From Hyaloperonospora brassicae (lineage: Eukaryota; Oomycota; Peronosporomycetes; Peronosporales; Peronosporaceae), in contig CANTFL010001287.1 of assembly GCA_947650285.1 (NCBI GenBank), positions 310,001 through 374,000 on the forward strand: 64,000 nt of DNA. The letters run 5' to 3'. This document shows, piece by piece, positions 25,504-56,819 of this stretch. The position numbers and the translations under genes were made by a program. Numbering within the stretch: position 1 is the first letter of the stretch; the number at the start of each line of letters is the position of its first letter. Under the pieces are notes generated by a model. That model searched no databases and was not told the origin of the DNA. It saw only the letters and a list, made by a program, of their open reading frames with translations.

Positions 25504-25874
25504 AAGCCGCGGTCGTCTTGTGTCAGTACATCTTAATCGGTAATTTCGCAACGGACTTCCTCTTAATTGATCCTTCGGTACCATATATCACGACGGCTCA
25601 ACAACTATCGAATTTTTTTCTCCTTCGGACACCCTCTTCCCTGAGCTTGACTCTTGTCCCTTCACCGTGCCGACCTCATGGTCTACTACTCTTCAAAATC
25701 ACTTCACCACATTTTAATGAGGCTTGCTGTCAAAAAAACGGTCGGTGCCAGTAGAAGAGGATATCCCTGATGATCCATCTATGATAATAAATTTTGTAAA
25801 TATCTTGATTGATGTTGCATCTAAAGCACATTCATTGTGTGGTACTACCCCTAGTAATGTGTTACTCTTATCAC
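25504..25874. other. No gene seen, tail of repeat R
   Basis: Between the minisatellite and the protease fragment. A word near 25725 (CTTGCTGTCAAAAAAACGG) is A-rich; nothing else was recognised. Confidence 0.3.
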
Positions 25875-28870
25875 ATTGAATATCGAAGTGATTCAAGATT
25901 TAGCACTTCGTGTTCCATTCGACAGTGGGGCCTCAGACAACTTTATAGGACGCCAGGCCAGTCGATAGAGGATTGTAGGCTCAAGCTCGTTCAGTGCTAC
26001 ACCCCTCCTACGAGCATTACGGTGCGCTTTGAAACAGGCGCATCTATAGCAATGAGAAGACGTGTAGTGGGAACTCACTACAAATCATAAGATGAGCAGT
26101 ACAATGATAAATCTAGCGTACTGGACTTGGGTGAAAATTTGATGTCATCCTTGGTCGACCATGGATCATTGGTACGAGCCAAGAGTTATCTTGCAGGATC
26201 AATCCGTGAAGATGCATGTTGCTTGTTCATCAGAGGTCCATCTGATAAACGTCTTGGAGCGCTCACAAGCGTATTAATGCTCTACAAGTGAGAGGGTGAC
26301 CTCGCTCGTGGTTTGGTCGTTAGTACGACTGCACAAAAGCTCAGTGTATTGTAAACACTACGATTTGGAGCAAGCGGTCGGTAACTGTCTTGAAACACAG
26401 GCAGTGTCGAATGTTTACCACCCGTATACGTCGAGTGTATAAGAACATGGATGTTTATTTGAAAGGAAACATCCAAGGCGTCTAAATTAGTTGTCGATGA
26501 GAGACAAAATAGTGATTAAGAGTATACCGAACAGTCGACCGTTGAAGACCGAACTGTGGTAGCGCTGCCACTGTCTGAAGACGTCGAGAGAATAGGTCCC
26601 CACGTACTTTAGGACCAATACCCTCAAGATAGGCTTACTGAGGTAAAATATCCTTAGGGACATATAGAGACAAGTTCCCAGAAAGAAACCGAGGCACTGA
26701 TAGTCTTGGTGAACGACAGAATACTTGTCGGCGCTTGAACGCTTTGTTAGTTCCTCTGAAGTTAACTTCGGGGTAACCACAATTTCCAATTCTCAAGCCT
26801 ATAGAATTCTTACGAGGTCTACGGAGTGGAGAAGTTAAACAATCTGCTTACTTGTCGCAGAGGAAGATAGCGTCACCGATACATAGCTGGCGGTAATTTT
26901 CGCTGAGGACGAATGCGTTTTCAGCAGCTCATCGATGAACAAAAGTGTCCTCGCTGAGAAGACTCGGATCGAACGATGAACGTCTCAATCCTGGGAGTCG
27001 TCAAAAGAACATTTCTTGCAAAAATATTTGATCGAAGTCACGGATTATATACTGCATCCTTGCAGTGCGATTATCCAAACGATAAAGGAACTCATCCCAA
27101 GATTGAACCAATATCAGGTTCAAAGTATTGTATCATTAAGCAGTAGCCACATCCTCGTGAACAGGTACTAGCGATCGACAAGATCGTTGCCGATCGTTGA
27201 GCAGCGGGTCATTTGAGAAATCAACTTCCCCGCATTATTCTCCTCCCTTCCCTGAGCGAAATACCACAGGAGAATTGCAGATAGTGCGTATATCTATTAA
27301 GTTGTATGCTGACACATTACCGGCTCAAACGATGACATCGAGGAAGAAAGCTTATATACATGATGCTGATATGTCAAAGAATACAAAAAATTTCGTCTGT
27401 ACGCTGGATGAACGAATTCTATCTGATCCTGATGCGTGAAAAAACACATCTCGTAACATCAGTAAGCAAGCCCAGCGGTATACTATGTGAGTTGCTGGTC
27501 ATTCCACAGGGGCTATAGAACGACCCTATAGCGTTCAACGGATGTATAACAAATCTGTTGAGATCGGTGCGAGATTTCAAACGAGTTACTTGCTATCAGT
27601 CGCGTCATCTACAACCATCTGAGCGCAACTATGTAGTGCATGTCGATAAAATATATGCCACGAAGTATGCACTAGCCAAGCTTTGCGTCCGTCTCTGAGG
27701 AAATAGACTGATCGTTGTGTACACGAAAGATTCGTTCGTACGCACGGCTGTTTACAGTCCCATTCAATCGCTAAGAATGGCGAGGTGGATGTCGTTCTTT
27801 GCGAAGTATATCTTCTTTATTTGATACAATATAGAACGGCTGAACGGCGTCGCTGATGCTATATCAAACCGGCCTGACTCAGATCCGGTGGTGTCATCCA
27901 ATATCGAGCATAATTTCACTGATGTCATGCTAACTAGCAGCGTCCCTTCTTCGAGCTTGCTCGATGACTCAAGAATTCGAACGATATAGGCACATCAATT
28001 TTGCGTCTCATGTATTATATTACAATCCATTCCGACAGCTTTAAAATTTTGCCAGCGACGTACCGGCCTTTATCGGATCTGCAAACAACTCGCGATGAAC
28101 TGCTGTATTGCGCAGATGTTTCCGAAAACACATCACGTTTCATCATACCTTCTCATATTAATATACACTCACGTATCATGCATTAGTATCAAGATGCACC
28201 AATAATTGGGCATCTTGGCCGTGACAAGACTGCTCTAACGGTAAGTCGCGACTTTTACTGGCCCCGCGAGTATTGATTGTGTGCATGTGCACTTCGTTTT
28301 GTGCGGTGTGTAAACGGATAAAGTCTATTTTTTACACCGTGCGTCATTGCAGCGTCTACCGGTGCTAGCAGAGTGCTCGATGTCCGTTTCAATGTACTTC
28401 TAATTTGAAGAATTTTATCCAAAATCGTAAGAATGCGGCTATTTTTGTTTCATTAGCCGATTTAGCGAGATAATGCGTCTTGTTATGTCTTGGAGTTAGT
28501 CACAGCCGAATATTGGTCTCTTTCTTTCGTCGACACTTTATTTCTTAGTAATGACTTACTTAATGATCTCGTCTCTGACACCCTCTATCACGGATAAGGT
28601 TTGGCAATTTGTGTTATGTTTTCTCAATACACGGTGGAAGATGTATTTTTTGGTCATTCGAAAACAGATGGCTAGACAGAGCGTGCGAACAGTGTCCTCG
28701 CAGATATTCTTCGAGGCATATACACTCAGTCACGTGTTGGAGATATTTTGTTATCGATGGTCGAGGCCCTACCATTAAGTTAATACATGCATATACCGCG
28801 CATACACCAGTCCACGTGAATGGATTACACCATCAATGAATGCCCACTCTACTAGAGTGTGACGCTTGCT
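25875..28870 (+). pseudogene. pol: pol remnant (protease, RT, RNase H, integrase), relic E
   Basis: Protease active-site word F-D-S-G-A-S with a following N-F-I-G-R-Q near 25.92 kb. RT entry words near 27.08-27.22 kb (CCTCGTGAACAGGTACTAGCGATCGACAAG region, in parts). RT motif-B flank TTCAACGGATGTATAACAAA at 27.53 kb. RNase H words near 27.58 and 27.74 kb. Integrase zinc region ACTTTTACTGGCC near 28.25 kb. Integrase end H-T-P-V-H-V-N-G-L near 28.81 kb. Stops and deletions occur throughout, and the catalytic RT Y-x-D-D region is deleted. Confidence 0.72.
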
Positions 28871-36756: not shown

Positions 36757-37148
36757 TGTAACGGGGCAGCCCGTTACATGGAATTGTCACTTTACATAAA
36801 CAATGACAATAAAGAATATTATGTTGAATATTCTTTAAACATTATCACCAAAGTGGTGATATTGATGGGTCGACCAAAGAGTCTGTTCATTGGTTTATAT
36901 CTTGATGGTATCAACCCATCAATCGCCGCAAGACGCGTGCAATGAGTGGTGACGAGACGTCACCATACACTCAGTTATATTAGTATAGTTAAGTTAAGTC
37001 AAACAGCGAGACAGTGGTTAAAGACTTAATTATATTAATATGACAGTTCTGCTTTTTCCTTATCTACGCTTCCTCATTTTCCTCGTGTAGGCTGTCGGGC
37101 GCACCGAAACCCTTGCGTTAACTTCACGCAAGGGTGTGCCCCGTTACA
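36757..37148 (+). repeat. 5' LTR of copy B
   Basis: 392 bp. It begins with a perfect hairpin TGTAACGGG-gcag-CCCGTTACA. It differs from its own 3' LTR at many positions, far more than the 3' LTRs of B and C differ from one another. Confidence 0.95.
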
Positions 37149-37150
37149 CC

Positions 37151-37158
37151 TGGTAGCA
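37151..37158 (+). other. Primer-binding site of copy B
   Basis: TGGTAGCA two bases after the LTR end, consistent with an initiator-Met-like tRNA primer. Confidence 0.7.
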
Positions 37159-37192
37159 CTTTGTAGTCCTTCCAAGGACCACATCATCCAAC

Positions 37193-38346
37193 ATGAACAT
37201 GTTGGATGAAGAAGATACCTTTCACGCCACGCGTGAAGGGTTTACCCATTTGAGTGACATCGAATGGGGTGCTGTAGAACGAAGAGTTCTACCGTAGGCG
37301 AGTTCGCCATTAGCGCCATGTTGGAGTCTCTCAACAGAGACCAACAACATGCCGCTATCGCCAAGTTCATTCAACATGAACTTGTCACCGATAGGGAGAA
37401 AGTAGCCTTGCTTCACCAGCAAGGCTCTCAACAGGCCGAGCAGTTGAGAGAACTCGGTGCTCGACAGACAGAGCTGTTGAGACAGCAGCAATTCCATGCT
37501 GCTGTGGGCGGGACGGCGCATGCGCGTCGTTCCGAAGTCATGAAATTTGACATTTCCAAGTACAGTGGAGTCCCGGAGGATTCCCTGTTACTATGATTTG
37601 TCGTACTCGACAGAGCCCTAAGGGCTCGTCGCGTCGAAGATGAGCAAATGAAACTCACATTTGCTCAGACCCACTTGGCAGGGCGTGCCAAAACTTGGTT
37701 CCTGGGACTCGAGAGTAGCGACCCAAATGTGTTTAGGTCGCTAGATGACTTCAAGTCCCGGCTCAGACAAACGTTTGAGCCGCCACGGGCTGAGTTCAGG
37801 GCTCGTTCAGAGCTCCTGAAACTCAAGCAGGGTAAGCGTGATGTGCACGCTTACGCACAACAGATACGACTCCTTGCGAGTAGTATAACTGCTAACTCAG
37901 TCCATGAACACACGTTGATTACGGTGTTCATGCAAGGGCTCGCAGAAGGGCCCGTCAGGAGCCACCTGTTCCGCCTTGAGCTGAATACGCTGAAAGATGC
38001 GATATCAGCCGCGGAACAGGAAGACTTTAGCATGAGACAGGCTCATGCTAGCTCAAACTCTTATCGTCCACCGAGACGACAAGAGATCGGAGGTCCAGAA
38101 CCAATGGACCTCTGCTATGTTGAGAGCGAGAGACCTCGCTCTTCAAACAACAAGCGATTGCAGAGGTGCAATCGCTGTCAGAAGTTAGGGCACTACGCAT
38201 ACGAGTGTAGTGCTCCACGCCCAGTGCCAAACAGTACTGAGCGAAATGGACGACCTTTTGCCAGAAAGGGCAATGGGTGTGGGTCCAGCGCTGTTGCGAA
38301 GCCGCGACAGAGAGACGGACCATAAAAAAATGGTCGGGGTCAGTAG
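37193..38346 (+). pseudogene. gag: gag of copy B (frameshift and two stops)
   Basis: Homologous to the intact 384-aa gag of copies A and C. A one-base deletion near 37283 (CGAAGAG where A and C have CGAATGAG) shifts the frame. TGG became TGA at 37594-37596. TCA became TAA at 38323-38325, just before the natural end. The zinc knuckle C-N-R-C-Q-K-L-G-H-Y-A-Y-E-C is preserved. The 12-bp-arm inverted repeat at 37184-37209 straddles the start codon. Confidence 0.92.
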
Positions 38347-40395
38347 GGGCGGAGCGCTGACTGATCCAGCAACCTCAAGAAAATTTGCAAATCTCTTGAC
38401 GAAAGTTGCTCCAGATACACAATCATTGTGTGTCTCTGCACCTGGTGATGACGTTTCGCTCATCACCTTTAAGTTGGAAGCGACAAATGACTTGTCGCTT
38501 CGTGCCCGAATAGACTGTGGGGCGTCGAACAACTTCGTTCGTCGCCAGTAACTAGAGGGTCGTAGGCTCAAGTTCGTTGAGCGCGACATACCCCTCACAA
38601 GGATGACGGTGCGCCTTGCAACAGGCGCATCGATAACCGTTGAGAAACGTGTAGTAGGAATCCACTACACGTTAGAGGGCGAACAGTATACGATGGTGAC
38701 TTCATCGTACTGGATCTGGATGACAAATTTGATGTCATCCTAGGATTAAATTGGCTTAGAAGGTACGAGCCAAGGGTGAGATGGCAGCATCGATCCTTCA
38801 AGATGCCTGCCGCTTGTTCATCAGATGGCCATCTGATGAACATCTTGGAGTGTTCACAAGCGTGTGCATGTACCGCGAGTGAGTGCGATGGCCTCACTTG
38901 CGGTACGGTCGTTAGCACGACTGCACAAGATCACAGTGTAGTTGATCACTACGCTGTGGAGCAAGCTCCCGGCGGCTGTACAGAAGTACAGGCTGCGCCG
39001 AAGATCCACCACTCGAATAAGTCGAGTAGACCGGGACATGAATGCATGCCTAGCGGGCAGCATCTTAGAAGAAAGAAACATGTTGCCTTCAAGGGGCAAC
39101 ATGGAAATCCTAGGTCGACTGGAGAGTCGACCGTAGAGGATTGGTGCCTGACTGTGGTTGCACAGCCACAGTCGGAAGACGTCGAGGGAATAAGTCCCCA
39201 CGTACTTGAGGAAGAAATTCCTCAAGAGTCACTTGCTGAAGGATCAGGCCCTCAGCAACCTGTGGAAGCAAGCTCCCAGGAAGAAACCGAGACGTTGAAC
39301 GTCTTGGTTAATGACGGATCAAGCGTAGGTGCTTATACGCTTGATCTGATTGTGCCTCCGAAGTTACCTTCGGAGATAACTCAGTTGCCAACGCTAGAAC
39401 CGAAACGGTTCTTGCGTGATCTGCGTAGTGGCAAAGTCAAGCATATCTGCATACTCGTCACAGAGGACGAGTATGTGACCGACATTCGGTCGGCAACAGT
39501 ATTTGCTGAGACCGAACGGGTTCTCAGCAGCTCATCGATGGACGAAAGTGTCCTCGATGAGAAGACTCGGATTGAGCGATACACGTCTCAATCCTGGGAG
39601 TCACTTCAGGAAAATCCTTTGTATAAGGATTTGATCGAATTCAAAGATGTATTACCTGAATCCGTGCCTTGCGAGTTGCCTAAGGACAAAGGCACTCGAC
39701 ACGAGACTTATCTAAAATTGGGCTCGAAATACTGTGTCATGAAGCAGTGGCCACTGCCTCGTGAACAAGTACTAGAGATCGACAAGTTCTTTGCCGATCG
39801 CTTAGCAGCGGGCCATGTGAGGGAATCAACATCCCCTCACAGCTCTCTGACCTTCTGTGTGCGAAAGGCCACAGGAGGGTGGCGGATAGTGCACGCATTC
39901 AACAAATTGAATGCTGCAACGGTGCCGGCTCAGACGCCGATACCGAGGAAGGACGTAATCATAGATGGTATGTCAAAGAGTACCATCTTTTCGTCCATGA
40001 ATCTGATTGATGGATTCTATCAGATCCTCATGCGTGAACGGGACATCACGTTCACAGCAGTGAGTACCCCTAGCGGGATGCTGTGGGAGTGGCTAGTGAT
40101 GCCACAGGGGCTGAGCAATGCCCCTGCAACATTCAACAGATGTGTGACAAATCTGTTGAGACCGGTGCGAAGTCTCGCACCGAGTTACTTCGACGATGTG
40201 TTCTTGCATAGCCGGGATATGGACGGAAAGACGGACGTTGAAGTTCACAGACTCACTTTCGTCGGGTTCTTCAACTTATGCGCAAGCATAAGTTGCACGC
40301 CAACCTCAATAAGTGTATATTCGCGGCCATCGAAATACCACTTCTTGGGTTCATCGTGGGTAAACACGGCGTACGCCCTGATCCCGAAAAGATAA
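38332..40395 (+). pseudogene. pol: pol of copy B: protease and most of reverse transcriptase
   Basis: Protease: R-I-D-C-G-A-S-N-N-F active-site region, then TAA at 38549-38551 (shared with copy C) and a two-base insertion near 38689. RT (ORF 38776-40395): VRKATGGWRIVHAFNKLN, IFSSMNLIDGFYQI (motif A region), GLSNAPATFNRC (motif B) and SYFDDVF, the catalytic Y-x-D-D box. After E-V-H-R a one-base deletion near 40250, shared with copies C and D, shifts the frame; the correct continuation is in the next ORF. Confidence 0.92.
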
Positions 40396-42007
40396 AGGCG
40401 ATCACCGACTGGCCGGTGCCAGTCGATGTCAAGGGACTAAGGAAGTTCCTCGGATTAGCGGCGTACTTACACAAATACTCAAGGAACTGCGCCGAGATGA
40501 CTGTTCATCTTTCTTGCTTGCTCAAGAAAAATGTCAAGTGGTCATGGAACGCTGAGTGCCAGCGTTCCTTTGAAGGTATCAAGCAAAGCTCGATGTAATC
40601 GCCGATCTTGGCGATTGCAGATCAGGACAGACCATTTCATGTGGTCTGTGACGCCAGCGATTTCGCAATCGGCTGTGCGTTAATGCAGTTCGATGCAGAT
40701 GGCGCGGAGCGCGTCATCTGTTATCAGTCGCGTCAGCTGCAAGCAGCTGAGCGTAATTACCCAGTGCATGACAAGGAACTCCTTGCCATGAAATATACAC
40801 TGTCTAAGTTCCGGGTCTATCTATTGGAAGATAGACCGTTCATCGTCTATACGGACCATGCGCCATTACGCACGGCCGTAAACAGCCCACACCTCTTGCA
40901 AAGAAAGGCGAGGTGGCTGTATTTCTTCGCGGAGTATAACCTCTCCGTGGAGTACAAACCAGGACGAATCAATGTCGTCGCTGATGCGCTTTCGCGCCGG
41001 CCCGATTTCGAGCCGGACGCACAACTAAACAGTGAGGATAAGCCCACTGTTGCGACACTTTCAGTCAGTGTCCCGTCGTCAAGTTTACTTGACGACGTTC
41101 GAAAGGCATACGCGGAAGATAAGGATCTTCTGCGATTGATGGATCATCTGGTGAATCCATCCAGTAAATCCATGAGGGATTTACCGGCTTTGTACCGATC
41201 CTCGTCGGATCGGTATAGTACACGCAACGGATTGCTGTACTATACAGCTGTTGCCGACGACACGTCTCGTGTCGTCGTACCCGCTCATCATGATTTGCGT
41301 TTACGCATCATGTATGAGTGTCACGATGCCCCAACAGGCGACCATCGTGGTAGAGAAAAGACTCACCTCACGGTAAGTCGTGACTTTTACTGGCCACGCC
41401 AGTATCAGTTTGTCCGCAAGTAAATGCGTGCTTGCGAGGTTTGTCAACGGGTGAAGCCTAGTCCTTCATCCCGTGCGCCATTGCAGCCTCTGCCTGTTCC
41501 GACAGAGTGCTGGCAGTCCGTTTCAATGGACTTCGTCTTCGATTTTCCCGAAGACGCTCACAAGAATAATGGTATTCTTGTTTTTGTTGACCGATTCAGC
41601 AAGATGGTCCATCTTGCTGCTGTCCCTGAGTCGACCAAGGCTCAAGGTTGTGCTCGTGTCTTTCTCGACACGGTCTTTAGACTCCACGGGTTACCCCGTG
41701 AACTCGTATCCGACCGTGACCCTCGGTTCACGGCGGCATTTTGGCAAACCGTGTTCCGTACTCTCGGAACACGATTGAAGATGTCCACTTCTGACCATCC
41801 AGAAACAGATGGTCAGACGGAACGTGCGAATCGTGTCCTCTAAGAGATCCTTCGAGGATATGTCCACTCGTTTCCGAGTTGGAGCGAATTCCTACCCATG
41901 GTGGAATTCGCCATCAATAATTCGGTGCATGCTTCCACACAGCACACACCGTTTTACGTGAATGGCCTATGCCATTCACGTGTGCCCACCCTTATAGAGT
42001 GTGACTC
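40278..42007 (+). pseudogene. pol: pol of copy B: RT end, RNase H, integrase core
   Basis: RT connection FLGLAAYLHKYSRNCAEM. RNase H region VVCDASDFAIGCALMQ, then YQSRQL, HDKELLAMKY and VYTDHAPLR. Integrase zinc-binding H-H...C-x-x-C ending in C-E-V-C-Q. Integrase core with Asp in SMDFVFDFPE, Asp in VSDRDPRF and Glu in DGQTERANR (D,D,E set). Stops: TAA at 40596-40598, TAA at 41421-41423 (shared with C; copy D has a Tyr codon here) and TAA at 41841-41843 (Glu codon in C). Confidence 0.92.
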
Positions 42008-43240
42008 TTGGATAAGGGGGGGGGGGCCCGCTCGAGCAAAAACCGTTTTGGCTCTTGCTCATCACGTGTCGACGCTAACGTCGTCACGTATGATGCCGAT
42101 GTCGATCAAGTCGACATAGATGAAGAAGATCGCCTCAATAATAGCGATGACGCTATTATTGACTCGGATGATGATGACGATGCTGGTATATTCAGCATCG
42201 TCAACGATTATGCCAGCGAGGAAGAAGACAACCTCGCTGAAGAAGAGAACAATCTCTTAGCAGTGCGCACGAAGCGCACTGAAAGACAAAACAAAGAGTC
42301 AGCAGAGAACTTCCTGCTGACTCGAGAGGCGGTAGTCCGTTTCGTTCAGGACTCCATCGCAAATGCAGTGGACCGTCAGAAACGGAACGCAGACAAGAAT
42401 GGAAGAGTAAATGTTCTTTCATTTAAAATTATCGACCTAGTACTACTGTCTACGGTAAACTTACCTGGACATACAGTCACTAGTGTCGGCAGTAGTAAAC
42501 TACTACCGAAGTACATTGGGCCATTTCAAGTGTTGCATCGCAAGGGCAATGCATACACACTCGAATTGCCACGTAGGATGCGCACGCATCCTACGTTTTA
42601 CGTGGGGAGGCTCAGGCCGTACTGTCAGTACGAGCCTTCTTCTTCCGATGAAGATATCCCCCACGTTCAAGAACATCCATCAAGTTCTTGCGTTCGCGCT
42701 CCAGACGATCCGTCTGGTCGCGCAGATAAGATACCTCGGAACTCAACCGAGATATCTCCCCGCGAGCTGTCGCCAGCTCGCCGAATAGGGAGCGGACATC
42801 CCGCTCGACCTGAAGCTGCTCTGTGGCATAATCGGCGCGATCCCTTGCCCGATCAGCCTCGTGATCCTTGCGGTTCTTCCGCACGGTATCAGTCAAAGCG
42901 TAGCGCCGGTCGCGCTCGTGCTTCAAGTCATCGCGCAATTCATCGATTGCGCGATCCATCTCGTAAGGGTGGAGATGGTGAGCCGAATCATCTGAAGGAG
43001 GTCTTTCCTCCTCCACCACATCCTTTGGTGGATGCTCACGGTGATCAACGCTTTCTAGTTGAGCGTATCTTGAATCAACGTGACGATTCAGGATCAAGGA
43101 CGAGCTACCTCGTCCAGTGGCGGGGGTATCCACCCTCTTGGAACAGCTGGGACCCCCGCTCTCAGCTGTTGATGGATGTTGAAGGTCTCGTCCGCCAGTA
43201 TGACGAGACCCATCCGATGAGTCCTGTGGCCCATCGGTAA
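42008..43240 (+). pseudogene. pol: pol of copy B: integrase C-terminus and chromodomain
   Basis: After an 11-G run (42016-42026) that puts the frame out of step, a 410-codon frame holds an acidic stretch, the integrase C-terminal LLPKYIGPFQVLHRKGNAYTL block (GPF/Y-like), a long Pro/Arg-rich linker and a chromodomain [14 protein letters not shown]...[16 protein letters not shown]. Chromodomains can steer integration to modified histones. The linker and chromodomain DNA (42612-43240) is read on the other strand as a coiled-coil ORF. Confidence 0.88.
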
Positions 43241-43343
43241 ACACGCGCCCTAGGCGCTTGTAGACGGATTGCAAGTTTGCAATCGCGTCACGCATCTCAG
43301 CCGAGATGTGTGCCCTTCCCCAGGGCGAACTTAGGGAATACAC
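42612..43343 (-). CDS. Antisense ORF 2 of copy B (243 aa, coiled coil)
   Basis: An intact minus-strand frame overlapping the sense pol frame by about 630 bp. The C-terminal half is a long charged coiled coil ([53 protein letters not shown]). The N-terminal half is Ser/Gly/Pro-rich. It is in the same frame as antisense ORF 1, separated by two stops in 61 nt; GTGAGT at the end of ORF 1 is a good splice donor, so the two may be one spliced gene. Copy C has the same ORF with one amino-acid difference seen. No family recognised. Confidence 0.65.
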
Positions 43344-43403
43344 GTTCCAATGTGCACGTTGCGATTTGTCGACACAGCTCGCACAAGGATCACCCTAAGT
43401 GAG

Positions 43404-44222
43404 TCATTGAATGCCAGACTCACTTGACAAACAGTGCAACCGGTACCTAGCACCGGTTGGCGTTCGCCTTTCGAATCTGAGGCGTGTCGCCTCAAGTTTC
43501 TTGAGCCACCCTTCTCGTCCAAAATTCTTTACGTTTTGGACGAACGCGTTCCACGCAGCCAAAAGCGATGCTTTGTCACGCTTTTGGTTGCTGTTGTACC
43601 ATCGATGTCTAAGAAAGACATAGAGATAAAAATCCTCTTCAGCGCGAAAGTTCTTCCCGCTGGAACTCAAGCCGTGAAGCTCGGTCGCATCGAATAAAGG
43701 TATTCGATGGTGTTGGTTTGTCTCGTGAGACAAGCTATTGATGAGCCGTTCGGGCAGACGCCACGGCTTCGACTCATCACCCTTCACAGTGGTATCTCTG
43801 TAGGTATCACGGCTCCCAGAATGACGACGGCTCACGCCATCGTCATCAAGCTCGTGCGAAGAAGCACGAGTCGGCGGTGGTAAGGAGTAATACTCCTCAC
43901 CACTCTGGTCACCTTCATCATCACTGCCGAACAGACTGTGATGCAACTCACGAGTCCGTTCGTTCGGCAGTGGCCTTGGCGAATACTGAGGCGTCGCCGG
44001 TGAGCGAGACGCCTCTGGAACATTGCCCGAGTCAGACACGTCTGGCTCGCCAGAGTAGATTACCTCTACGTCGGGGTCATCATGCGCACGAGGTGTGGTA
44101 CCGCGTGCACCTGCAGCACCTGTTGCTGCAGGTGGAGAACGAGCAGCAGACGACGAATCGTCTGCCGCAGAGGCTGGCACAGCACCGGGCTGTGCGGGTC
44201 TTGAGTCACCTTGCATTGACAT
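43404..44222 (-). CDS. Antisense ORF 1 of copy B (272 aa)
   Basis: Starts 130 bp inside the 3' LTR and runs back towards pol. Residues 1-150 are disordered, Ser/Pro/Asp-rich (SRPAQPGAVPASAADDSSS, GSDDEGDQSGEEYYS). Residues about 160-265 look folded, with DFYLYVFLRHRWYNSNQKR, LLAAWNAFVQNVKNFGREGW and LKKLEATRLRFERR. No signal peptide or transmembrane segment, so it is not an envelope gene. Sense frames across it are shadows. Copy C preserves it with about five changes; copy D has a decayed homologue. Confidence 0.65.
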   Translation of the reverse strand: MSMQGDSRPAQPGAVPASAADDSSSAARSPPAATGAAGARGTTPRAHDDPDVEVIYSGEPDVSDSGNVPEASRSPATPQYSPRPLPNERTRELHHSLFGSDDEGDQSGEEYYSLPPPTRASSHELDDDGVSRRHSGSRDTYRDTTVKGDESKPWRLPERLINSLSHETNQHHRIPLFDATELHGLSSSGKNFRAEEDFYLYVFLRHRWYNSNQKRDKASLLAAWNAFVQNVKNFGREGWLKKLEATRLRFERRTPTGARYRLHCLSSESGIQ

Positions 44223-44315
44223 GTTAACTATGCGAGGTCAAGCGGAAAGTGAATGGAACGGACCCAACAAGTGCTCCCTGTCCCAATGGTGCCCAACGGG
44301 CGGCCGCTATATTTT

Positions 44316-44338
44316 TGATAGTCACACGGTGACTATCA
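44316..44338. repeat. Perfect 10-bp hairpin before the polypurine tract
   Basis: TGATAGTCAC-acg-GTGACTATCA, immediately followed by the polypurine tract. Copy C has the same hairpin and copy D a close version (TGATAGTCA...TGACTATCA). Confidence 0.85.
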
Positions 44339-44341
44339 GTT

Positions 44342-44352
44342 AGGGGGGGTGA
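44342..44352 (+). other. Polypurine tract of copy B
   Basis: AGGGGGGGTGA directly abuts the 3' LTR, the usual plus-strand primer site. Confidence 0.8.
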
Positions 44353-44745
44353 TGTAACGGGGCAGCCCGTTACATGGAATTGTCACTTTACATAAACAAT
44401 GACAATAAAGAATATTATGTTGAATATTCTTTTAACAATATCACCAACGTGGTGATATTGAAAGGTCGACCAAAGAGTCTGTTCATTGGTTGATATCTTG
44501 ACGATATCAGCCCACCAATCGCCGCAAGATGCGCGCAATGAGTGGTGACGAGACGTCACCATACACTCAGTTATATTAGTATAATTAAGTTAAGTCAAAC
44601 AGAGAGACAGTAGTTTAAAGACTTAATTATATTAATATAACAGCTCTGCTTTTACCCTACCTACGATTCCTCGCTTGCCACGTGTACGTCTGTCGGGGCA
44701 CCGAAACCCTTGCGTTAACTTCACGCAAGGGTGTGCCCCGTTACA
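44353..44745 (+). repeat. 3' LTR of copy B
   Basis: 393 bp ending CCCCGTTACA, followed by the target duplication TGGAC. Nearly identical (about five differences by eye) to the 3' LTR of copy C. Confidence 0.95.
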
Positions 44746-47611: not shown

Positions 47612-48004
47612 TGTAACGGGGCACACCCTTGCGTGAAGTTAACGCAAGGGTTTCGGTGCCCCGACAGACGTACACGTGGCAAGCGAGGAATCGTAGGTAG
47701 GGTAAAAATAGAACTGTTATATTAATATAATTAAGTCTTTAAACTACTGTCTCTCTGTTTGACTTAACTTAATTATACTAATATAACTGAGTGTATGGTA
47801 ACGTCTCGTCACCACTCATTGCGCGCATCTTGCGGCGATTGGTGGGCTGATATCGTCAAGATATCAACCAATGAACAGACTCTTTGGTCGACCTTTCAAT
47901 ATCACCACGTTGGTGATATTGTTAAAAGAATATTCAACATAATATTCTTTATTGTCATTGTTTATGTAAAGTGACAATTCCATGTAACGGGCTGCCCCGT
48001 TATA
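47612..48004 (-). repeat. 3' LTR of copy C
   Basis: 393 bp. The terminal base pair is mutated (...CCCCGTTATA where CCCCGTTACA is expected, base 48003). It is closer to the 3' LTR of copy B than to its own 5' LTR. Confidence 0.93.
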
Positions 48005-48014
48005 TCACCCCCCT
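48005..48014 (-). other. Polypurine tract of copy C
   Basis: Minus-strand AGGGGGGTGA next to the 3' LTR. Confidence 0.78.
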
Positions 48015-48133
48015 AACTGATAGTCACCGTGTGACTATCAAAAATATAGCGGCCGCCCGTTGGGCACCATTGGGACAGGGAGCACTTGTTGGGTCCGTTC
48101 CATTCACTTTCCGCTTGACCTCGCATAGTTAAC

Positions 48134-48952
48134 ATGTCAATGCAAGGTGACTCAAGACCCGCACAGCCCGGTGCTGTGCCAGCCTCTGCGGCAGACGATT
48201 CGTCGTCTGCTGCTCGTTCTCCACCTGCAGCAATAGGTGCTGCAGGTGCACGCGGTACCACACCTCGTGCGCATGATGACCCCGACGTAGAGGTCATCTA
48301 CTCTGGCGAGTCAGACGTGTCTGACTCGGGCAATGTTCCAGAGGCGTCTCGCTCACCGGCGACGCCTCAGTATTCTCCAAGGCCACTGCCGAACGAACGG
48401 ACTCGTGAGTTGCAACACAGTATGTTCGGCAGTGATGATGAAGGTGACCAGAGTGGTGAGGAGTATTACTCCTTACCACCGCCGACTCGTGCTTCTTCGC
48501 ACGAGCTTGATGACGATGGCGTGAGCCGTCGTCATTCTGGGAGCCGTGATACCTACAGAGATACCACTGTGAAGGGTGATGAGTCGAAGCCGTGGCGTCT
48601 GCCCGAACGGCTCATCAATAGCTTGTCTCACGAGACAAACCAACACCATCGAATACCTTTATTCGATGCGACCGAGCTTCACGGCTTGAGTTCCAGCGCG
48701 AAGAACTTTCGCGCTGAAGAGGATTTTTATCTCTATGTCTTTCTTAGACATCGATGGTACAACAGCAACCAAAAGCGTGACAAAGCATCGCTTTTGGCTG
48801 CGTGGAACGCGTTCGTCCAAAACGTAAAGAATTTTGGACGAGAAGGGTGGCTCAAGAAACTTGAGGCGACACGCCTCAGATTCGAAAGGCGAACGCCAAC
48901 CGGTGCTAGGTACCGGTTGCACTGTTTGTCAAGTGAGTCTGGCATTCAATGA
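48134..48952 (+). CDS. Antisense ORF 1 of copy C (272 aa)
   Basis: Counterpart of 43404-44222 in copy B, opposite to this element's pol. Same length, with about five residue differences (for example S-G-E-S-D versus S-G-E-P-D, and S-S-S-A-K versus S-S-S-G-K). Disordered acidic Ser/Pro half, then a folded-looking half with FLRHRWYNSNQKR. Uninterrupted although the neighbouring pol is full of lesions. Confidence 0.65.
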   Translation: MSMQGDSRPAQPGAVPASAADDSSSAARSPPAAIGAAGARGTTPRAHDDPDVEVIYSGESDVSDSGNVPEASRSPATPQYSPRPLPNERTRELQHSMFGSDDEGDQSGEEYYSLPPPTRASSHELDDDGVSRRHSGSRDTYRDTTVKGDESKPWRLPERLINSLSHETNQHHRIPLFDATELHGLSSSAKNFRAEEDFYLYVFLRHRWYNSNQKRDKASLLAAWNAFVQNVKNFGREGWLKKLEATRLRFERRTPTGARYRLHCLSSESGIQ

Positions 48953-49012
48953 CTCACTTAGGGTGATCCTTGTGCGAGCTGTGTCGACAAATCGCAACGT
49001 GCACATTGGAAC

Positions 49013-49744
49013 GTGTATTCCCTAAGTTCGCCCTGGGGAAGGGCACACATCTCGGCTGAGATGCGTGACGCGATTGCAATCTTGCAATCCGTCTACAAGC
49101 GCCTAGGGCGCGTGTTTACCGATGGGCCACAGGACTCATCGGATGGGTCTCGTCATACTGGCGGACGAGACCTTCAACATCCATCAACAGCTGAGAGCGG
49201 GGGTCCCAGCTGTTCCAAGAGGGTGGATACCCCCGCCACTGGACGAGGTAGCTCGTCCTTGATCCTGAATCGTCACGTTGATTCAAGATACGCTCAACTA
49301 GAAAGCGTTGATCACCGTGAGCATCCACCAAAGGATGTGGTGGAGGAGGAAAGACCTCCTTCAGATGATTCGGCTCACCATCTCCACCCTTACGAGATGG
49401 ATCGCGCAATCGATGAATTGCGCGATGACTTGAAGCACGAGCGCGACCGGCGCTACGCTTTGACTGATACCGTGCGGAAGAACCGCAAGGATCACGAGGC
49501 TGATCGGGCAAGGGATCGCGCCGATTATGCCACAGAGCAGCTTCAGGTCGAGCGGGATGTCCGCTCCCTATTCGGCGAGCTGGCGACAGCTCGCGGGGAG
49601 ATATCTCGGTTGAGTTCCGAGGTATCTTATCTGCGCGACCAGACGGATCGTCTGGAGCGCGAACGCAAGAACTTGATGGATGTTCTTGAACGTGGGGGAT
49701 ATCTTCATCGGAAGAAGAAGGCTCGTACTGACAGTACGGCCTGA
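49013..49744 (+). CDS. Antisense ORF 2 of copy C (243 aa, coiled coil)
   Basis: Counterpart of 42612-43343; only A-I-L-Q versus A-N-L-Q was noticed. Coiled coil over about residues 125-225. Overlaps the pol chromodomain frame 49116-50093 on the other strand. Confidence 0.65.
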
Positions 49745-50093
49745 GCCTCCCCACGTAAAACGTAGGATGCGTGCGCATCCTACGTGGCAATTCGAGTGTG
49801 TATGCATTGCCCTTGCGATGCAACACTTGAAATGGCCCAATGTACTTCGGTAGTAGTTTACTACTGCCGACACTAGTGACTGTATGTCCAGGTAAGTTTA
49901 CCGTAGACAGTAGTACTAGGTCGATAATTTTAAATGAAAGAACATTTACTCTTCCATTCTTGTCTGCGTTCCGTTTCTGACGGTCCACTGCATTTGCGAT
50001 GGAGTCCTGAACGAAACGGACTACCGCCTCTCGAGTCAGCAGGAAGTTCTCTGCTGACTCTTTGTTTTGTCTTTCAGTGCGCTTCGTGCGCAC
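49116..50093 (-). pseudogene. pol: pol of copy C: integrase C-terminus and chromodomain
   Basis: Same domains as 42008-43240: KYIGPFQVLHRKGNAY and the chromodomain [12 protein letters not shown]. The frame is open, but it is cut off from the integrase core by the frame change at the C-run 50330-50339 (10 bases). Confidence 0.88.
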
Positions 50094-50277
50094 TGCTAAG
50101 AGATTGTTCTCTTCTTCAGCGAGGTTGTCTTCTTCCTCGCTGGCATAATCGTTGACGATGCTGAATATACCAGCATCGTCATCATCATCCGAGTCAATAA
50201 TAGCGTCATCGCTATTATTGAGGCGATCTTCTTCATCTATGTCGACTTGATCGACATCGGCATCATACGTGACGACG

Positions 50278-50931
50278 TTAGCGTCGACACGTGATGAGCA
50301 AGAGCCAAAACGGTTTTTGCTCGAGCGAGCCCCCCCCCCTTATCCAAGAGTCACACTCTATAAGGGTGGGCACACGTGAATGGCATAGGCCATTCACGTA
50401 AAACGGTGTGTGCTGTGTGGAAGCATGCACCGAATTATTGATGGCGAATTCCACCATGGGTAGGAATTCGCTCCAACTCGGAAACGAGTGGACATATCCT
50501 CGAAGGATCTCTTCGAGGACACGGTTCGCACGTTCCGTCTGACCATCTGTTTCTGGATGGTCAGAAGTGGACATCTTCAATCGTGTTCCGAGAGTACGGA
50601 ACACGGTTTGCCAAAATGCCGCCGTGAACCGAGGGTCACGGTCGGATACGAGTTCACGGGGTAACCCGTGGAGTCTAAAGACCGTGTCGAGAAAGACACG
50701 AGCACAACCTTGAGCCTTGGTCGACTCAGGGACAGCAGCAAGATGGACCATCTTGCTGAATCGGTCAACAAAAACAAGAATACCATTATTCTTGTGAGCG
50801 TCTTCGGGAAAATCGAAGACGAAGTCCATTGAAACGGACTGCCAGCACTCTGTCGGAACAGGCAGAGGCTGCAATGGCGCACGGGATGAAGGACTAGGCT
50901 TCACCCGTTGACAAACCTCGCAAGCACGCAT
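50278..50931 (-). pseudogene. pol: pol of copy C: integrase core
   Basis: 217 codons from the second half of the zinc-binding motif (C-E-V-C-Q) through the full D,D,E catalytic core, where the Glu codon lost in copy B is kept. It is preceded by TAA at 50932-50934, the stop shared with B. Confidence 0.9.
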
Positions 50932-52076
50932 TTACTTGCGGACAAACTGATACTGGCGTGGCCAGTAAAAGTCACGACTTACCGTGAGGTGAGTCTTTTC
51001 TCTACCACGATGGTCGCCTGTTGGGGCATCGTGACACTCATACATGATGCGTAAACGCAAATCATGATGAGCGGGTACGACGACACGAGACGTGTCGTCG
51101 GCAACAGCTGTATAGTACAGCAATCCGTTGCGTGTACTATACCGATCCGACGAGGATCGGTACAAAGCCGGTAAATCCCTCATGGATTTACTGGATGGAT
51201 TCACCAGATGATCCATCAATCGCAGAAGATCTTTATCTTCCGCGTATGCCTTTCGTACGTCGTCAAGTAAACTTGACGACGGGACACTGACTGAAAGTGT
51301 CGCAACAGTGGGCTTATCCTCACTGTTTGGTTGTGCGTCCGGCTCGAAATCGGGCCGGCGCGAAAGCGCATCAGCGACGACATTGATTCGTCCTGGTTTG
51401 TACTCCACGGAGAGGTTATACTTCGCGAAGAAATACAGCCACCTCGCCTTTCTTTGCAAGAGGTGTGGGCTGTTTACGGCCGTGCGTAATGGCGCATGGT
51501 CCGTATAGACGATGAACGGTCTATCTTCCAATAGATAGACCCGGAACTTAGACAGTGTATATTTCATGGCAAGGATTCCTTGCCAAGCACTGGGTAATTA
51601 CGCTCAGCTGCTTGCAGCTGACGCGACTGATAACAGATGACGCGCTCCGCGCCATCTGCGTCGAACTGCATTAACGCACAGCCGATTGCGAAATCGCTGG
51701 CGTCACAGACCACATGAAATGGTCTGTCCTGATCTGCAATCGCCAAGATCGGCGATTGCATCAAGCTTTGCTTGATACCTTCAAAGGAACGCTGGCACTC
51801 AGCGTTCCATGACCACTTGACATTTTTCTTGAGCAAGCAAGAAAGATGAACAGTCATCTCGGCGCAGTTCCTTGAGTATTTGTGTAAGTACGCCGCTAAT
51901 CCGAGGAACTTCCTTAGTCCCTTGACATCGACTGGCACCGGCCAGTCGGTGATCGCCTTTATCTTTTCGGGATCAGGGCGAACGCCGTGTTTACCCACGA
52001 TGAACCCAAGAAGTGGTATTTCGATGGCCGCGAATATACACTTATTGAGGTTGGCGTGCAACTTATGCTTGCGCAT
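50932..52076 (-). pseudogene. pol: pol of copy C: RT end and RNase H
   Basis: Two frames (51564-52076 and 50932-51567) joined through a one-base deletion near 51575 (GTGCTTGGCAAGGAATCC). RT connection, the RNase H VVCDASDFAIGCALMQ and VYTDHAPLR blocks, and H-H of the integrase zinc motif are present. Confidence 0.9.
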
Positions 52077-53749
52077 AAGTTGAAGAACCCGACGAAAGTG
52101 AGTCTGTGAACTTCAACGTCCGTCTTTCCGTCCATATCCCGGCTATGGAAGAACACATCGTCGAAGTAACTCGGTGCGAGACTTCGCACCGGTCTCAACA
52201 GATTTGTCACACATCTGTTGAATGTTGCAGGGGCATTGCTCAGCCCCTGTGGCATCACTAGCCACTCCCACAGCATCCCGCTAGGGGTACTCACTGCTGT
52301 GAACGTGATGTCCCGTTCACGCATGAGGATCTGATAGAATCCATCAATCAGATTCATGGACGAGAAGATGGTACTCTTTGACATACCATCTATGATTACG
52401 TCCTTCCTCGGTATCGGCGTCTGAGCCGGCACCGTTGCAGCATTCAATTTGTTGAATGCGTGCACTATCCGCCATCCTATTGTGGCCTTTCGCACACAGA
52501 AGGTCGGAGAGCTGTAAGGGGATGTTGATTCCCTCTCATGGCCTGATGCTAAGCGATCGGCAAAGAACTTGTCGATCGCTTGCACACGTTCATGAGGCAG
52601 GGGACACTGCTTCATGACACAGTTCTTCGAGCTCAATTTTAGATAAGTCTCGTGTCGAGTGCCTTTGTCCTTAGGCAACTCGCAAGGCACGGATTCAGGT
52701 AATACATCTTTGAATTCGATCAAATCCTTATACAAAGGATTTGCCTGAAGTGACTCCCAGGATTGGGACGCGTATCGCTCAATCCGAGTCTTCTCATCGA
52801 GGACACTTTCGTCCATCGATGAGCTGCTGAGAACCCGTTCGTTCTCAGCAAATACTGTTGCCGACCGAATATCGGCCACATACTCATCCTCCGTGACGAG
52901 TATGCAGATCTGCTTGACTTTGCCACTACGCAGATCACGCAAGAACCGTTTCGGTTCTAGCGTTGGCAACTGAGTTATCTCCGAAGTTAACTTCGGAGGC
53001 ACAATCAGATCAAGTGTATAAGCACCTACGCTTGATCCGTCATTAACCAAGACGTTCAACGTCTCGGTTTCTTCCTGGGAGCTTGCTTCCACAGGTTGCT
53101 GAGGGCCTGATCCTTCAGCAAGTGACTCTTGAGGAATTTCTTCCTCAAGTACGTGGGGACTTATTCCCTCGACGTCTTCCGACTGTGTCTGTGCAACCAC
53201 AGTCAGGCACCAATCCTCTACGGTCGACTCTCCAGTCGACCTAGGATTTCCATGTTGCCCCTTGAAGGCAACATGTTTCTTTCTTCTAAGATGCTGCCCG
53301 CTAGGCATGCATTCATGTCCCGGTCCACTCGACTTATTCGAGTGGTGGATCTTCGGCGCAGCCTGTACTCCTGTACAGCCGCCGGGGGCTTGCTTTACAG
53401 CGTAGTGATCTACTACACTGTGATCTTGTGCAGTCGTGCTAACGACCGTACCGCAAGTGAGGCCATCGCACTCACTCGCGGTACATGCACACGCTTGTGA
53501 ACACTCCAAGATGTTCATCAGATGGCCATCTGATGAACAAGCGGCAGGCATCTTGAAGGATCGATGCTGCCATCTCACCCTTGGCTCGTACCTTCTAAGC
53601 CAATTTAATCCCAGGATGACATCAAATTTGTCATCCAGATCCAGTACGATGAAGTCATCATCGTACTGCTCGCCCTCTAACGTGTAGTGGATTCCTACTA
53701 CACGTTTCTCAACGGTTATCGATGCGCCTGTTGCAAGGCGCACCGTCAT
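51959..53749 (-). pseudogene. pol: pol of copy C: protease end and reverse transcriptase
   Basis: 596-codon frame with the protease FDVILGLNWLRRY block, a poorly conserved linker, and RT motifs as in copy B including SYFDDVF. The final 45 or so residues are out of frame because of the one-base deletion near 52103 shared by B, C and D. A variable patch (CPLPHERVQAIDKFFADRLASG) differs clearly from copy B but matches copy D. Confidence 0.91.
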
Positions 53750-54030
53750 CCTTGTGAGGGGTATGTCGCGCTCAACGAACTTGAGCCTACGACCCTCTAG
53801 TTACTGGCGACGAACGAAGTTGTTCGACGCCCCACAGTCTATTCGGGCACGAAGCGACAAGTCATTTGTCGCTTCCAACTTCAAGGTGATGAGCGAAACG
53901 TCATCACCAGGTGCAGAGACACACAATGATTGTGTATCTGGAGCAACTTTCGTCAAGAGATTTGCAAATTCTCTTGAGGTTGCTGGATCAGTAGGGCGCT
54001 CCGCCCCTACTGACCCCGACCATTTTTTGA
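53750..54030 (-). pseudogene. pol: pol of copy C: protease active-site region
   Basis: Reached by -1 frameshift from gag. A-R-I-D-C-G-A-S-N-N-F active-site word, then TAA at 53801-53803 where copies A and D have a Ser codon. Confidence 0.85.
53988..54028 (-). promoter_or_regulatory. -1 ribosomal frameshift signal at the gag-pol junction
   Basis: In gag frame the codons are TCA AAA AAT, giving the slippery heptamer A-AAA-AAT (54028-54022). After an 8-nt spacer (GGTCGGGG) follows a hairpin with 9-bp stem TCAGTAGGG / CCCTACTGA and an 8-nt loop (53988-54013). The gag stop TAG is inside the stem. Pol continues in the -1 frame with no stop before the protease. Heptamer, spacer and stem meet the classical pattern of retroviral signals. 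Confidence 0.78.
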
Positions 54031-55161
54031 TGGTCCGTCTCGCTGTTGCGGCTTCGCAACAGCGCTGGACCCACGCATATTGCCCTTTCTGGCGAATGGT
54101 CGTCCATTTCGCTCAGTACTGTTTGGTACTGGGCGTGGAGCACTACACTCGTATGCGTAGTGCCCTAACTTCTGACAGCGATTGCACCTCTGCAATCGCT
54201 TGTTGTTTGAAGAGCGAGGTCTCTCGCTCTCAACATAGCAGAGGTCCATTGGTTCTGGACCTCCGATCATTTGTCGTCTCGGTGGACGATAAGAGTTTGA
54301 GCTAGCATGAGCCTGTCTCATGCTAAAGTCTTCCTGTTCCGCGGCTGATATCGCATCTTTCAGCGTATTCAGCTCAAGGCGGAACAGGTGGCTCCTGACG
54401 GGCCCTTCTGCGAGCCCTTGCATGAACACCGTAATCAACGTGTGTTCATGGACTGAGTTAGCAGTTATACTACTCGCAAGGAGTCGTATCTGTTGTGCGT
54501 AAGCGTGCACATCACGCTTACCCTGCTTGAGTTTCAGGAGCTCTGAACGAGCCCTGAACTCAGCCCGTGGCGGCTCAAACGTTTGTCTGAGCCGGGACTT
54601 GAAGTCATCTAGCGACCTAAACACATTTGGGTCGCTACTCTCGAGTCCCAGGAACCAAGTTTTGGCACGCCCTGCCAAGTGGGTCTGAGCAAATGTGAGT
54701 TTCATTTGCTCATCTTCGTTGCGACGAGCCCTTAGGGCTCTGTAGAGTTCGACAAACCATAGTAACAGGGAGTCCTCCGGGACTCCACTGTACTTGGAAA
54801 TGTCAACTTTCATGACTTCGGGACGACGCGCATGCGCCGTCCCGCCCACATCAGCATGGAATTGCTGCTGTCTCAACAGCTCTGTCTGTCGAGCACCGAG
54901 TTCTCTCAACTGCTCGGCCTGTTGAGAGCCTTGCTGGTGAAGCAAGGCTACTTTCTCCCTATCGGTGACAAGTTCATGTTGAATGAACTTGGCGATAGCG
55001 GCATGTTGTTGGTCTCTGTTGATAGACTCCAACATGGCGCTAATGGCGAACTCGCCTACGGTAGAACTCATTCGTTCTACCGCACCCCATTCGATGTCAC
55101 TCAAATGGGTAAACCCTTCACGCGTGGCGTGAAAGGTATCTTCTTCATCCAACATGTTCAT
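54007..55161 (-). CDS. gag: Gag polyprotein of Gypsy copy C (intact, 384 aa)
   Basis: Same length and domains as gag of copy A: N-terminal Gln/Glu-rich coiled-coil-like region, retrotransposon gag core, zinc knuckle C-N-R-C-Q-K-L-G-H-Y-A-Y-E-C, basic tail R-D-G-P-S-K-N-G-R-G-Q. Start at the ATG within the inverted repeat next to the 5' LTR. Because gag and its frameshift site are intact while pol is dead, this copy could still supply Gag. Confidence 0.93.
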   Translation of the reverse strand: MNMLDEEDTFHATREGFTHLSDIEWGAVERMSSTVGEFAISAMLESINRDQQHAAIAKFIQHELVTDREKVALLHQQGSQQAEQLRELGARQTELLRQQQFHADVGGTAHARRPEVMKVDISKYSGVPEDSLLLWFVELYRALRARRNEDEQMKLTFAQTHLAGRAKTWFLGLESSDPNVFRSLDDFKSRLRQTFEPPRAEFRARSELLKLKQGKRDVHAYAQQIRLLASSITANSVHEHTLITVFMQGLAEGPVRSHLFRLELNTLKDAISAAEQEDFSMRQAHASSNSYRPPRRQMIGGPEPMDLCYVESERPRSSNNKRLQRCNRCQKLGHYAYECSAPRPVPNSTERNGRPFARKGNMRGSSAVAKPQQRDGPSKNGRGQ

Positions 55162-55215
55162 GTTGGATGTTGTGGTCCTTGAAAGGACTACAAAGTGCTA
55201 CAAAGTGCTACCAGG

Positions 55216-55608
55216 TGTAACGGGGCACACCCTTGCGTAACTTAACGCAAGGGATTTGGGTGCCCCGACAGACGTACACGTGGCAAGCGAGGAAGCGTAG
55301 GTAGGGTAAAAGTAGAACTGTTCTATTAATATAATTAAGTCTTTAAACTACTGTCTCTCTGTTTGACTTAATTCAATTATACTAATATAACTGCATGTAT
55401 GGTGACGTCTCGTCACCACTCATTGCACGCGTCTTGCGGCGATTGGTGGGCTGATATCATCAAGATATCAACCAATGAACAGACTCTTTGGTCGACCTTT
55501 CAATATCACCACGTTGGTGATATTGTTAAAAGAATATTCAACATAATATTATTTATTGTCATTGTTTATGTATAGTGACAATTCCATGTAACGGGCTGCC
55601 CCATTACA
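55216..55608 (-). repeat. 5' LTR of copy C
   Basis: 393 bp. Differs from the 3' LTR of the same element at about 20 positions, including one in the terminal palindrome (CCCCATTACA). A 10-bp local duplication, CAAAGTGCTA, stands next to it (55191-55210). Confidence 0.93.
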
Positions 55609-56769: not shown

Positions 56770-56819
56770 CCTGGGATCACTTTGTAGTCCGCACAAGAAC
56801 TACACTCGCATCGCTCAAC

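Follow-up and report, generated by a model that had tools for sequence, protein, structure and literature searches.

Ty3/gypsy retrotransposons of Hyaloperonospora brassicae are packed with short perfect hairpins of lineage-dependent stem length

Viral genomes with genome-scale ordered RNA structure fold at energies far below those of shuffled sequences along the coding genome, through sense-RNA pairing that tolerates G-U. Inverted repeats of other kinds are described in the accessible parts of the sources cited here: mitochondrial genes of Nematomorpha carry coding palindromes (arms of at least 15 bp counted, mean 43, up to 142; PMC6649704), the long terminal repeats (LTRs) of maize Sireviruses hold palindrome clusters in a cis-regulatory region that are linked to small RNAs (cited in PMC10760457), and template switching that homogenises arms and inverts spacers is reported from yeast genes (PMC8604942) and RNA stems (PMC8794818). 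Here we analysed 64,000 nucleotides of the oomycete Hyaloperonospora brassicae (assembly GCA_947650285.1, contig CANTFL010001287.1, positions 310,001 to 374,000; hereafter the window), which contain several copies of a Ty3/gypsy LTR retrotransposon. Three Ty3/gypsy lineages of this genome, H1 (the lineage of the window copies A-D), H2 and N, all contain far more perfect Watson-Crick hairpins than expected, both inside and outside coding sequence, and the spectrum of stem lengths depends on the lineage, with 8-10 bp in H1, 8 bp and upwards in H2 and about 5 bp in N.

The elements resemble viral genome-scale RNA structure in their low folding energy along the whole element and differ from it, judged by the pairing traits generally taken to define the viral kind, in having Watson-Crick stems with no clear G-U preference, strands that behave alike and a stem length that depends on the lineage. 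The nearest precedent found is the set of coding palindromes in Nematomorpha. As far as the available text of that study goes (PMC6649704), the likeness comprises many perfect inverted repeats in conserved protein-coding genes, paired substitutions, gain and loss between species, and possibly a bias against the third-third phase, which here would be confined to H1 (third-third counts of 7/44 in the H1 piece L020, 8/21 in the H2 piece L069 and 17/55 in the N piece L087). Unlike the palindromes in that text, the arms here measure about 5 or 8-12 bp and never reach 15 bp, the sequence belongs to a nuclear assembly and not to animal mitochondrial DNA, the spectra are lineage-specific, and non-coding DNA is similarly dense. 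With Sireviruses, as cited in PMC10760457, the elements share the presence of palindromes in an LTR retrotransposon; unlike those clustered motifs, the stems here differ in sequence and are spread over the whole element, rather than repeating one palindromic motif in a cis-region. Because the elements match neither the Nematomorpha palindromes nor viral structure in full, the trait would be new in kind. The top-ranked full-text literature, which leaves subscription journals mostly outside, yielded no description that we recognised of pervasive hairpins in retrotransposon coding sequence.

Copy B is a Ty3/gypsy LTR retrotransposon with a chromodomain: its coding region, now several broken frames, encodes gag, RVT_1, RNase H, integrase H2C2, SH3_Tf2-1 and Chromo domains (Pfam) between two LTRs. 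Gag was also recognised in copy A and the reverse transcriptase (RT) in copy D. The elements of this family in the window are as follows.

1..2041, minus strand: copy A, cut off where the window begins, with its 5' LTR at about 1652-2041 and a gag frame at 453-1643 (Pfam PF03732, PF19259).
18833..19225, minus strand: solo LTR of the same family, 86-88% identity to the LTRs of copy B.
22122..28868, plus strand: relic E, a decayed relative of the element with 65-75% nucleotide identity to copy B, in pieces; long hairpins lost.
36757..44745, plus strand: copy B, full-length; LTRs at 36757-37148 and 44353-44745, 91.6% alike.
47612..55613, minus strand: copy C, full-length, 98.3% identity to copy B; LTRs 93.4% alike.
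56328..64000, plus strand: copy D, a diverged H1 subfamily, 78% identity to copy B; LTRs 94.2% alike; lower hairpin density.

A first-pass annotation of the window had described copies A, B and C as full of short perfect hairpins and their surroundings as different, naming 13 inverted repeats; all 13 were found, with arms as claimed or one base longer. We counted perfect inverted repeats with arms of at least 8 bp and loops of 3-15 nt, taking the mean of 100 dinucleotide shuffles as background. Copy A holds 28 (0.32 expected), copy B 80 (1.47 expected, shuffle maximum 5), copy C 83 (1.57 expected), copy D, which the annotation had left out, 39 (1.46 expected) and the solo LTR 5 (0.10 expected). 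With loops of 0-15 nt, a scan of the whole window returned 254 such repeats. Their density is about 10 per kb in the three copies A, B and C, whereas DNA outside the elements mostly has 0-1 per kb; the longest arm anywhere is 14 bp. Loops of 0-2 nt are rarer than loops of 3-5 nt in copy B. A trade of stem length against GC was considered and rejected: the two correlate negatively in copy A (rho -0.67) and in the leader and gag of copy B (-0.61), less so in copies B and C (about -0.19), and no such relation appears in L020 or L069.

The excess exceeds every background applied to it. Codon shuffles that keep the protein (200 per frame) were outdone at arms of at least 8 bp in all 15 element frames, and five of six flank frames contained no such repeat, the sixth a single one. 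Four flanking stretches lie near chance (4 against 2.8 expected in 16.8 kb, 7 against 2.8 in 17.5 kb, 1 against 0.5 and 0 against 0.1). That the flanks are hairpin-poor holds for these four stretches at arms of at least 8 bp and needs amending for 22122-28868, where relic E keeps a residual excess of short hairpins; the flank 19226-36756, which contains the relic, is raised at arms of at least 6 bp (87 against 47). In 120-nt windows, the mean folding z of copy B is -3.86 on the sense and -3.83 on the antisense strand, as against -0.31 and -0.32 in two flank stretches, and the related piece L020, which retains an open frame of great length, reaches -4.9 and -5.1 on its two strands. Folding beyond shuffles is pervasive in the elements; in H2 and N the effect is smaller (z -0.8 to -1.5). 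These shuffle counts and folding energies, both suggested by the first-pass annotation along with a genome-wide repeat, confirm that the hairpin excess in the window elements is real and far beyond chance. Since dinucleotide and codon shuffles never reach the observed counts, flanks stay near chance and Copia frames of the same genome go no further than a slight excess at 6 bp, we reject chance, base composition and codon bias as exceedingly improbable sources of the hairpins.

The genome-wide repeat covered one assembly (100.56 Mb, 898 contigs), and the hairpin survey is that of this one genome, with four coding pieces of H2, five of N and one non-coding piece of each, several being near-copies. 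A search with RNase H gave at least 150 family matches above the cut-off (150 of 3,630 candidates were scored and all 150 pass). Across 30 pol pieces (L009-L038), arms of at least 8 bp occur at 6.0-13.6 per kb, the three pieces with 1339-amino-acid frames (L020, L032 and L033) standing at 13.6. An unrooted pol tree of 12 rows separates H1 (L020, L028, L010, L082), H2 (L069, L070, L072) and N (L087-L091, of which L091 covers 40% of the columns only). The trait is thus found in no fewer than three gypsy lineages, which differ in their spectra of stem length.

These spectra were measured with loops of 3-6 nt against the mean of 200 codon shuffles. In H1, stems of 8-10 bp number 26 in L020 (0.28 expected) and 16 in L010 (0.34 expected). 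In H2, L069 has 13 stems of 8 bp (0.35 expected) and L070 has 9 of 8-9 bp (0.27 expected); in a separate count, the lower edge at 8 bp shows in L069, where arms of 7 bp are near chance (3 against 1.8) and arms of 8 bp are raised (12 against 0.6), and less so in L070, where 7 bp is raised as well (5 against 1.5). In N, stems of exactly 5 bp are in excess in all five pieces (42 against 7.2 with a shuffle maximum of 15, 41 against 6.9, 42 against 6.6, 39 against 7.4 and 17 against 2.7), and no coding piece has an arm of 8 bp or more. Counts at arms of at least 6 and at least 8 bp had made N look devoid of hairpins; that was wrong, the excess of N lying at 4-6 bp with a peak at 5. A loop of 3 nt is the commonest in N (22/47 in L087 and 15/45 in L090, five-base stems with loops of 2-12 nt). 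GNRA loops are few. Hairpins with arms of at least 5 bp and loops of up to 12 nt cover 0.60 of the frame in L020, 0.37 in L069, 0.38 in L087 and 0.39 in L090, compared with 0.16-0.17 in codon shuffles. Non-coding DNA follows suit: downstream of H2, piece L092 contains 8 stems of 8 bp and 7 of 9 bp, downstream of N, piece L093 contains 39 stems of 5 bp (11.7 expected), and hairpin density per kb is 7.3 in coding and 7.1 in non-coding H2, and 10.1 in pol and 8-18 in the LTRs of H1.

Copia elements served as controls. None of five long Copia frames, from 30 loci, showed a comparable excess in its spectrum, two being raised at 6 bp (11 against 5.0 and 9 against 5.2), and both flank frames tested were at chance. 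Arms of at least 8 bp number 0-9 in each of the 30 loci; 22 of them have 0-3, against 0.4-1.1 expected, and in the eight loci with four or more, most come from motif arrays near one end. These palindromic arrays, seen in L040-L043, L046, L049, L050 and L055 (for example L040 538-611 and L049 574-670), contain TGACGTCA, which we take to be a CRE/bZIP site, ATTACTAAT and ATTACTCAT, and are reminiscent of Sirevirus cis-regions. No relatives of the elements were found in two DNA collections, viral_contigs and genome_contigs; at the protein level, relatives are on record from Peronospora, Phytophthora, Globisporangium and Pythium.

A sense RNA structured along its whole length in the ordinary way of RNA viruses could account for the folding if the structure served compaction or packaging, and would be expected to spare G-U pairs over A-C mismatches. 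No clear preference of this kind was observed, the comparisons with H2 and those within N being mixed. One-sided departures from pairing in the H1 family comprise 138 G-U and 129 A-C, states shared in an 11-copy pol segment 10 and 13, and interior mismatches are about equally G-U and A-C in H1 and few in H2. Read in H2, the stems of L020 lean to G-U (26-30 against 15-19) whereas those of L010 are balanced (17-25 against 18-25); N leans to G-U by 11 to 7, and in one stem (alignment centre 1198.5) several subfamilies show three or four G-U pairs. Antisense folding z lies within 0.4 of the sense value in every set folded both ways. On the side of the sense RNA, loops are A-rich on that strand (0.29 against 0.24 outside, with T at 0.25 and 0.25; chi-square p 0.0004; 6/8 sets). 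On the other side stands the following hairpin.

37184..37209, plus strand: perfect 12-bp hairpin with a 2-nt loop over the presumed gag start codon; copy A shares it with 12 bp and copy C with 11 bp.

A hairpin in this place sits badly with a structure serving the sense RNA. Because G-U equals A-C approximately and both strands fold alike, selection that sees the sense RNA alone fits poorly, although very short stems might be intolerant of G-U, a caveat to the strand argument. We consequently disfavour sense-RNA-only selection, while noting the A-rich loops and the G-U lean of N and of L020 stems in H2, and judge an ordinary structure of viral type unlikely. For the structured genomic RNA that the first-pass annotation had offered as one meaning, this leaves mild encouragement from the loops; the DNA-level property it had also offered, or one of two strands, is compatible with the stems.

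Equal folding of the two strands also suits a defence against silencing, in which two-strand hairpins would hinder small-RNA targeting or sense-antisense pairing and small RNAs of either strand would fold on themselves. In Phytophthora infestans, most annotated small-RNA loci overlap retrotransposons and RNAs of 24-30 nt prevail there, according to the accessible text of PMC3804510, and H1 elements have antisense frames that make an antisense RNA plausible.

43404..44237, minus strand: antisense frame 1, 277 amino acids, between pol and the 3' LTR; conserved protein with 36 homologues.
42612..43394, minus strand: antisense frame 2, 260 amino acids, which overlaps pol at its end and has a weak match to a leucine zipper (PF14389, E 3e-4) that falls short of the Pfam cut-off.

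Frame 1 is conserved in copy D at 57-62% of amino acids, on the antisense strand, and is probably a real antisense gene, judging from its conservation; one of its 36 homologues is labelled core-binding domain protein (H. arabidopsidis). However, no match to the two antisense proteins turned up in the 2.25 kb that follow one H2 pol gene, yet H2 has hairpins, and on this account we rejected antisense genes as their cause. A 5-bp stem, as in N, would hardly block targeting, and the trait is missing from Copia frames of this genome. Escape from silencing is therefore an improbable explanation. The counterpart of the two frames in copy C, again at the 3' end of the element, lies at 48119-49744 on the plus strand. 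Downstream of an N-lineage pol gene, L093 has an antisense open frame of 298 amino acids (1083-1976, minus strand) that matches neither of the antisense proteins of H1.

Individual stems are seldom shared between lineages. Of the L020 stems, 2 of the 25-31 that could be compared coincide with H2 stems, as do 2 of 23-29 from L010; N stems of L087 coincide with L020 in 2/50 cases and with L069 in 0/46. Within lineages, 39/57 centres are common to L087 and L090, which are 89% identical, and 35/47 to L020 and L010. With positions hardly common between lineages and the trait common to them, the shared thing is the property, and the individual stems turn over. Between L087 and L090, 259/291 stem pairs are unchanged. 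Some pairs have changed together: one 12-bp stem retains 9 pairs between L020 and L010 despite 11/24 differing bases, and among 11 copies of a 1.4-kb pol segment with 23 hairpin centres, at least two Watson-Crick types occur at 12/216 pairs, with the following stem as an example.

41074..41097, plus strand: stem whose G-C and A-T pairs vary from one subfamily to another (alignment centre 383.5 of the pol segment).

In relic E, a residual excess of short stems persists (38 against 23.7 at 5 bp, 10 against 5.6 at 6 bp), the stretch 25732-28868 has two arms of at least 8 bp, and 178/335 pairs of the L020 stems are unchanged, that is 0.53 against the 0.50 expected from independent decay. Retention at the level of independent decay suggests that stems are not maintained on dead copies, as judged from this one relic. 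A simple age gradient was rejected, copy D having half the density of copy B in spite of its more similar LTRs; lower densities are also seen in other H1 subfamilies (6-10 arms of at least 8 bp in 1.4 kb of L075-L078, against 17 in L079). With the gradient gone, the case for decay comes from relic E.

The reading that we prefer, holding it as possible rather than probable, is that selection during the replication cycle acts on a folded strand with lineage-specific hairpins. A single strand, either the genomic RNA or the cDNA, would be selected to be a string of hairpins whose size is set by the lineage; the presence of a stem of the right size would matter, not its sequence or its place. A reader of stem size without sequence would likely be a nucleic-acid-binding protein of the element, and we would guess at Gag/nucleocapsid, with hairpins that might, as a further guess, be units of packing or protection. 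If stem size alone is selected, stems should turn over between lineages, some pairs should change together and a dead copy should lose its stems; this selection would also account for the size classes, the similar density of coding and non-coding DNA, and compensation.

Several observations weigh against it. Size classes overlap rather than exclude one another: five-base stems are also raised in H1 and L069 (21 against 8.5, 19 against 7.4 and 20 against 8.6, with 13 against 8.8 in L070; loop 3-6), N is raised at 4 bp too (53 against 22 in L087), and in the non-coding L093 there are 5 stems with 7-bp arms, where 0.8 would be expected, and one with 8-bp arms. After correction for ascertainment, the H1 family shows weak internal constraint. 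An apparent halving of divergence in stems (0.019 against 0.037) proved to be largely ascertainment, the stems having been picked in one reference copy, and is weak with stems from all copies: shared third-position alleles stand at 0.07-0.08 per site in stems and 0.13 outside (a ratio of about 0.6; p 0.04-0.11 at four-fold sites), and stems likewise have fewer singleton alleles (0.21-0.23 against 0.29-0.30). Over 30 rows of the family, pairs broken in at least three copies amount to 80/614 and pairs of two Watson-Crick types to 2/614. Some multi-base stem changes are confined to one arm, and the role of Gag is a conjecture.

The main rival to selection on a folded strand is templated conversion of arms, in which fold-back template switching, or repair of mismatched hairpins in the cDNA, copies one arm onto the other, the protein acts as a filter and the hairpins are a by-product, as proposed for Nematomorpha. 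Stems end as abruptly as copying would have them end, pairing past the first mismatch being 0.17-0.29 where chance gives 0.25; perfect stems outnumber those with one mismatch (44 against 18 in L020, 17 against 1 in L071), the reverse of shuffles; and G-U is about as frequent as A-C. When the flanking context was compared and same-context events only were counted, six distinct loop inversions were found, three homopolymer loops being indistinguishable from complementation, against one reversal and no complement-only event as controls. Between L020 and L010, four stems have changes at (2,0)/(0,2) and one at (1,1), and with L015, which aligns poorly, as second outgroup, changes lie in one arm in 5/9 multi-change stems; with copy D as second outgroup, however, the L020 branch has 13 and 13 changes and all four multi-change stems are near balance, and the arms never differ significantly against outgroups (lowest p 0.09). 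Phase bias in L020 (20/7/17) may speak for conversion, resembling that in the available text on Nematomorpha (PMC6649704), whereas double changes common to at least three copies number 0 against 34 one-sided breaks, the 5-bp class and the lower edge of H2 at 8 bp are unexpected, and coding and non-coding densities are similar. Compared with the template-switch products described in the accessible parts of PMC8604942 and PMC8794818, the stems are likewise perfect short inverted repeats with small spacers, some perhaps with loop inversions; unlike those events, scattered over separate genes, they occur by the tens per element, their length goes with the lineage, and neither arm has clearly changed more than the other. 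The 5-bp enrichment in all three lineages and the one-arm changes lower our estimate of selection on a folded strand and raise that of arm conversion, which we nonetheless consider rather doubtful. No known mechanism explains the packing of hairpins well.

Protein sequence bears on selection and conversion in the same way. Stems lie in less conserved stretches, where a control pair, L087 and L069, differs at 0.49 of the L020 stem columns and at 0.36 outside, so that protein function would limit stems under either process; given this location, the annotation's view of codon choice as subordinate to pairing is partly right at most. Amino-acid changes unique to L020 fall on 21/73 stem, 9/30 loop and 26/191 outside positions, and a regional rate may lie behind the excess in stems, since loops are equally affected.

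Loops vary more than other sites in the H1 family (shared alleles at four-fold sites 0.21-0.24 against 0.16). Across H1 pol (window 38644-43240, L009-L038), they diverge faster than non-hairpin sites in most comparisons, with 0.29 against 0.18 at third positions between L020 and L010. At window positions 59461-59480, in copy D, a 4-nt loop in the RT region is exactly inverted relative to L009 and others (AGTC/GACT, in 3 and 29 copies), the context otherwise matching. L079, 97% like L020, has a distinct loop block common to L075-L077 (alignment centre 1062.5), which suggests recombination between H1 subfamilies. The LTR of copy B has an 11-base terminal inverted repeat at both ends (36757-36778, 37138-37148), and its first 22 bases form a 9-bp hairpin of their own.

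Together, these observations lead to a broader proposal, which we consider doubtful as a whole: that Ty3/gypsy lineages carry a structural message over the genetic one, made of sequence-independent hairpins of lineage-set stem length (about 5, 8 and up, or 8-10 bp) that occupy 37-60% of the four pol frames measured, extend over coding and non-coding sequence alike and serve as a recognition feature for a protein of the element. If it is true, an element sequence shaped throughout by lineage-sized hairpins would place coding DNA under a constraint of a new kind, and the folding, packaging or protection of LTR element genomes would become testable, with silencing, coat protein or polymerase as the setter of stem size. 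The hairpins bear on an old question, the joint evolution of paired sites through selection as against templated copying, for which a single genome here supplies many natural replicates and its Copia elements act as internal controls. The dating of elements and codon-based inference in such genomes would then also be affected.

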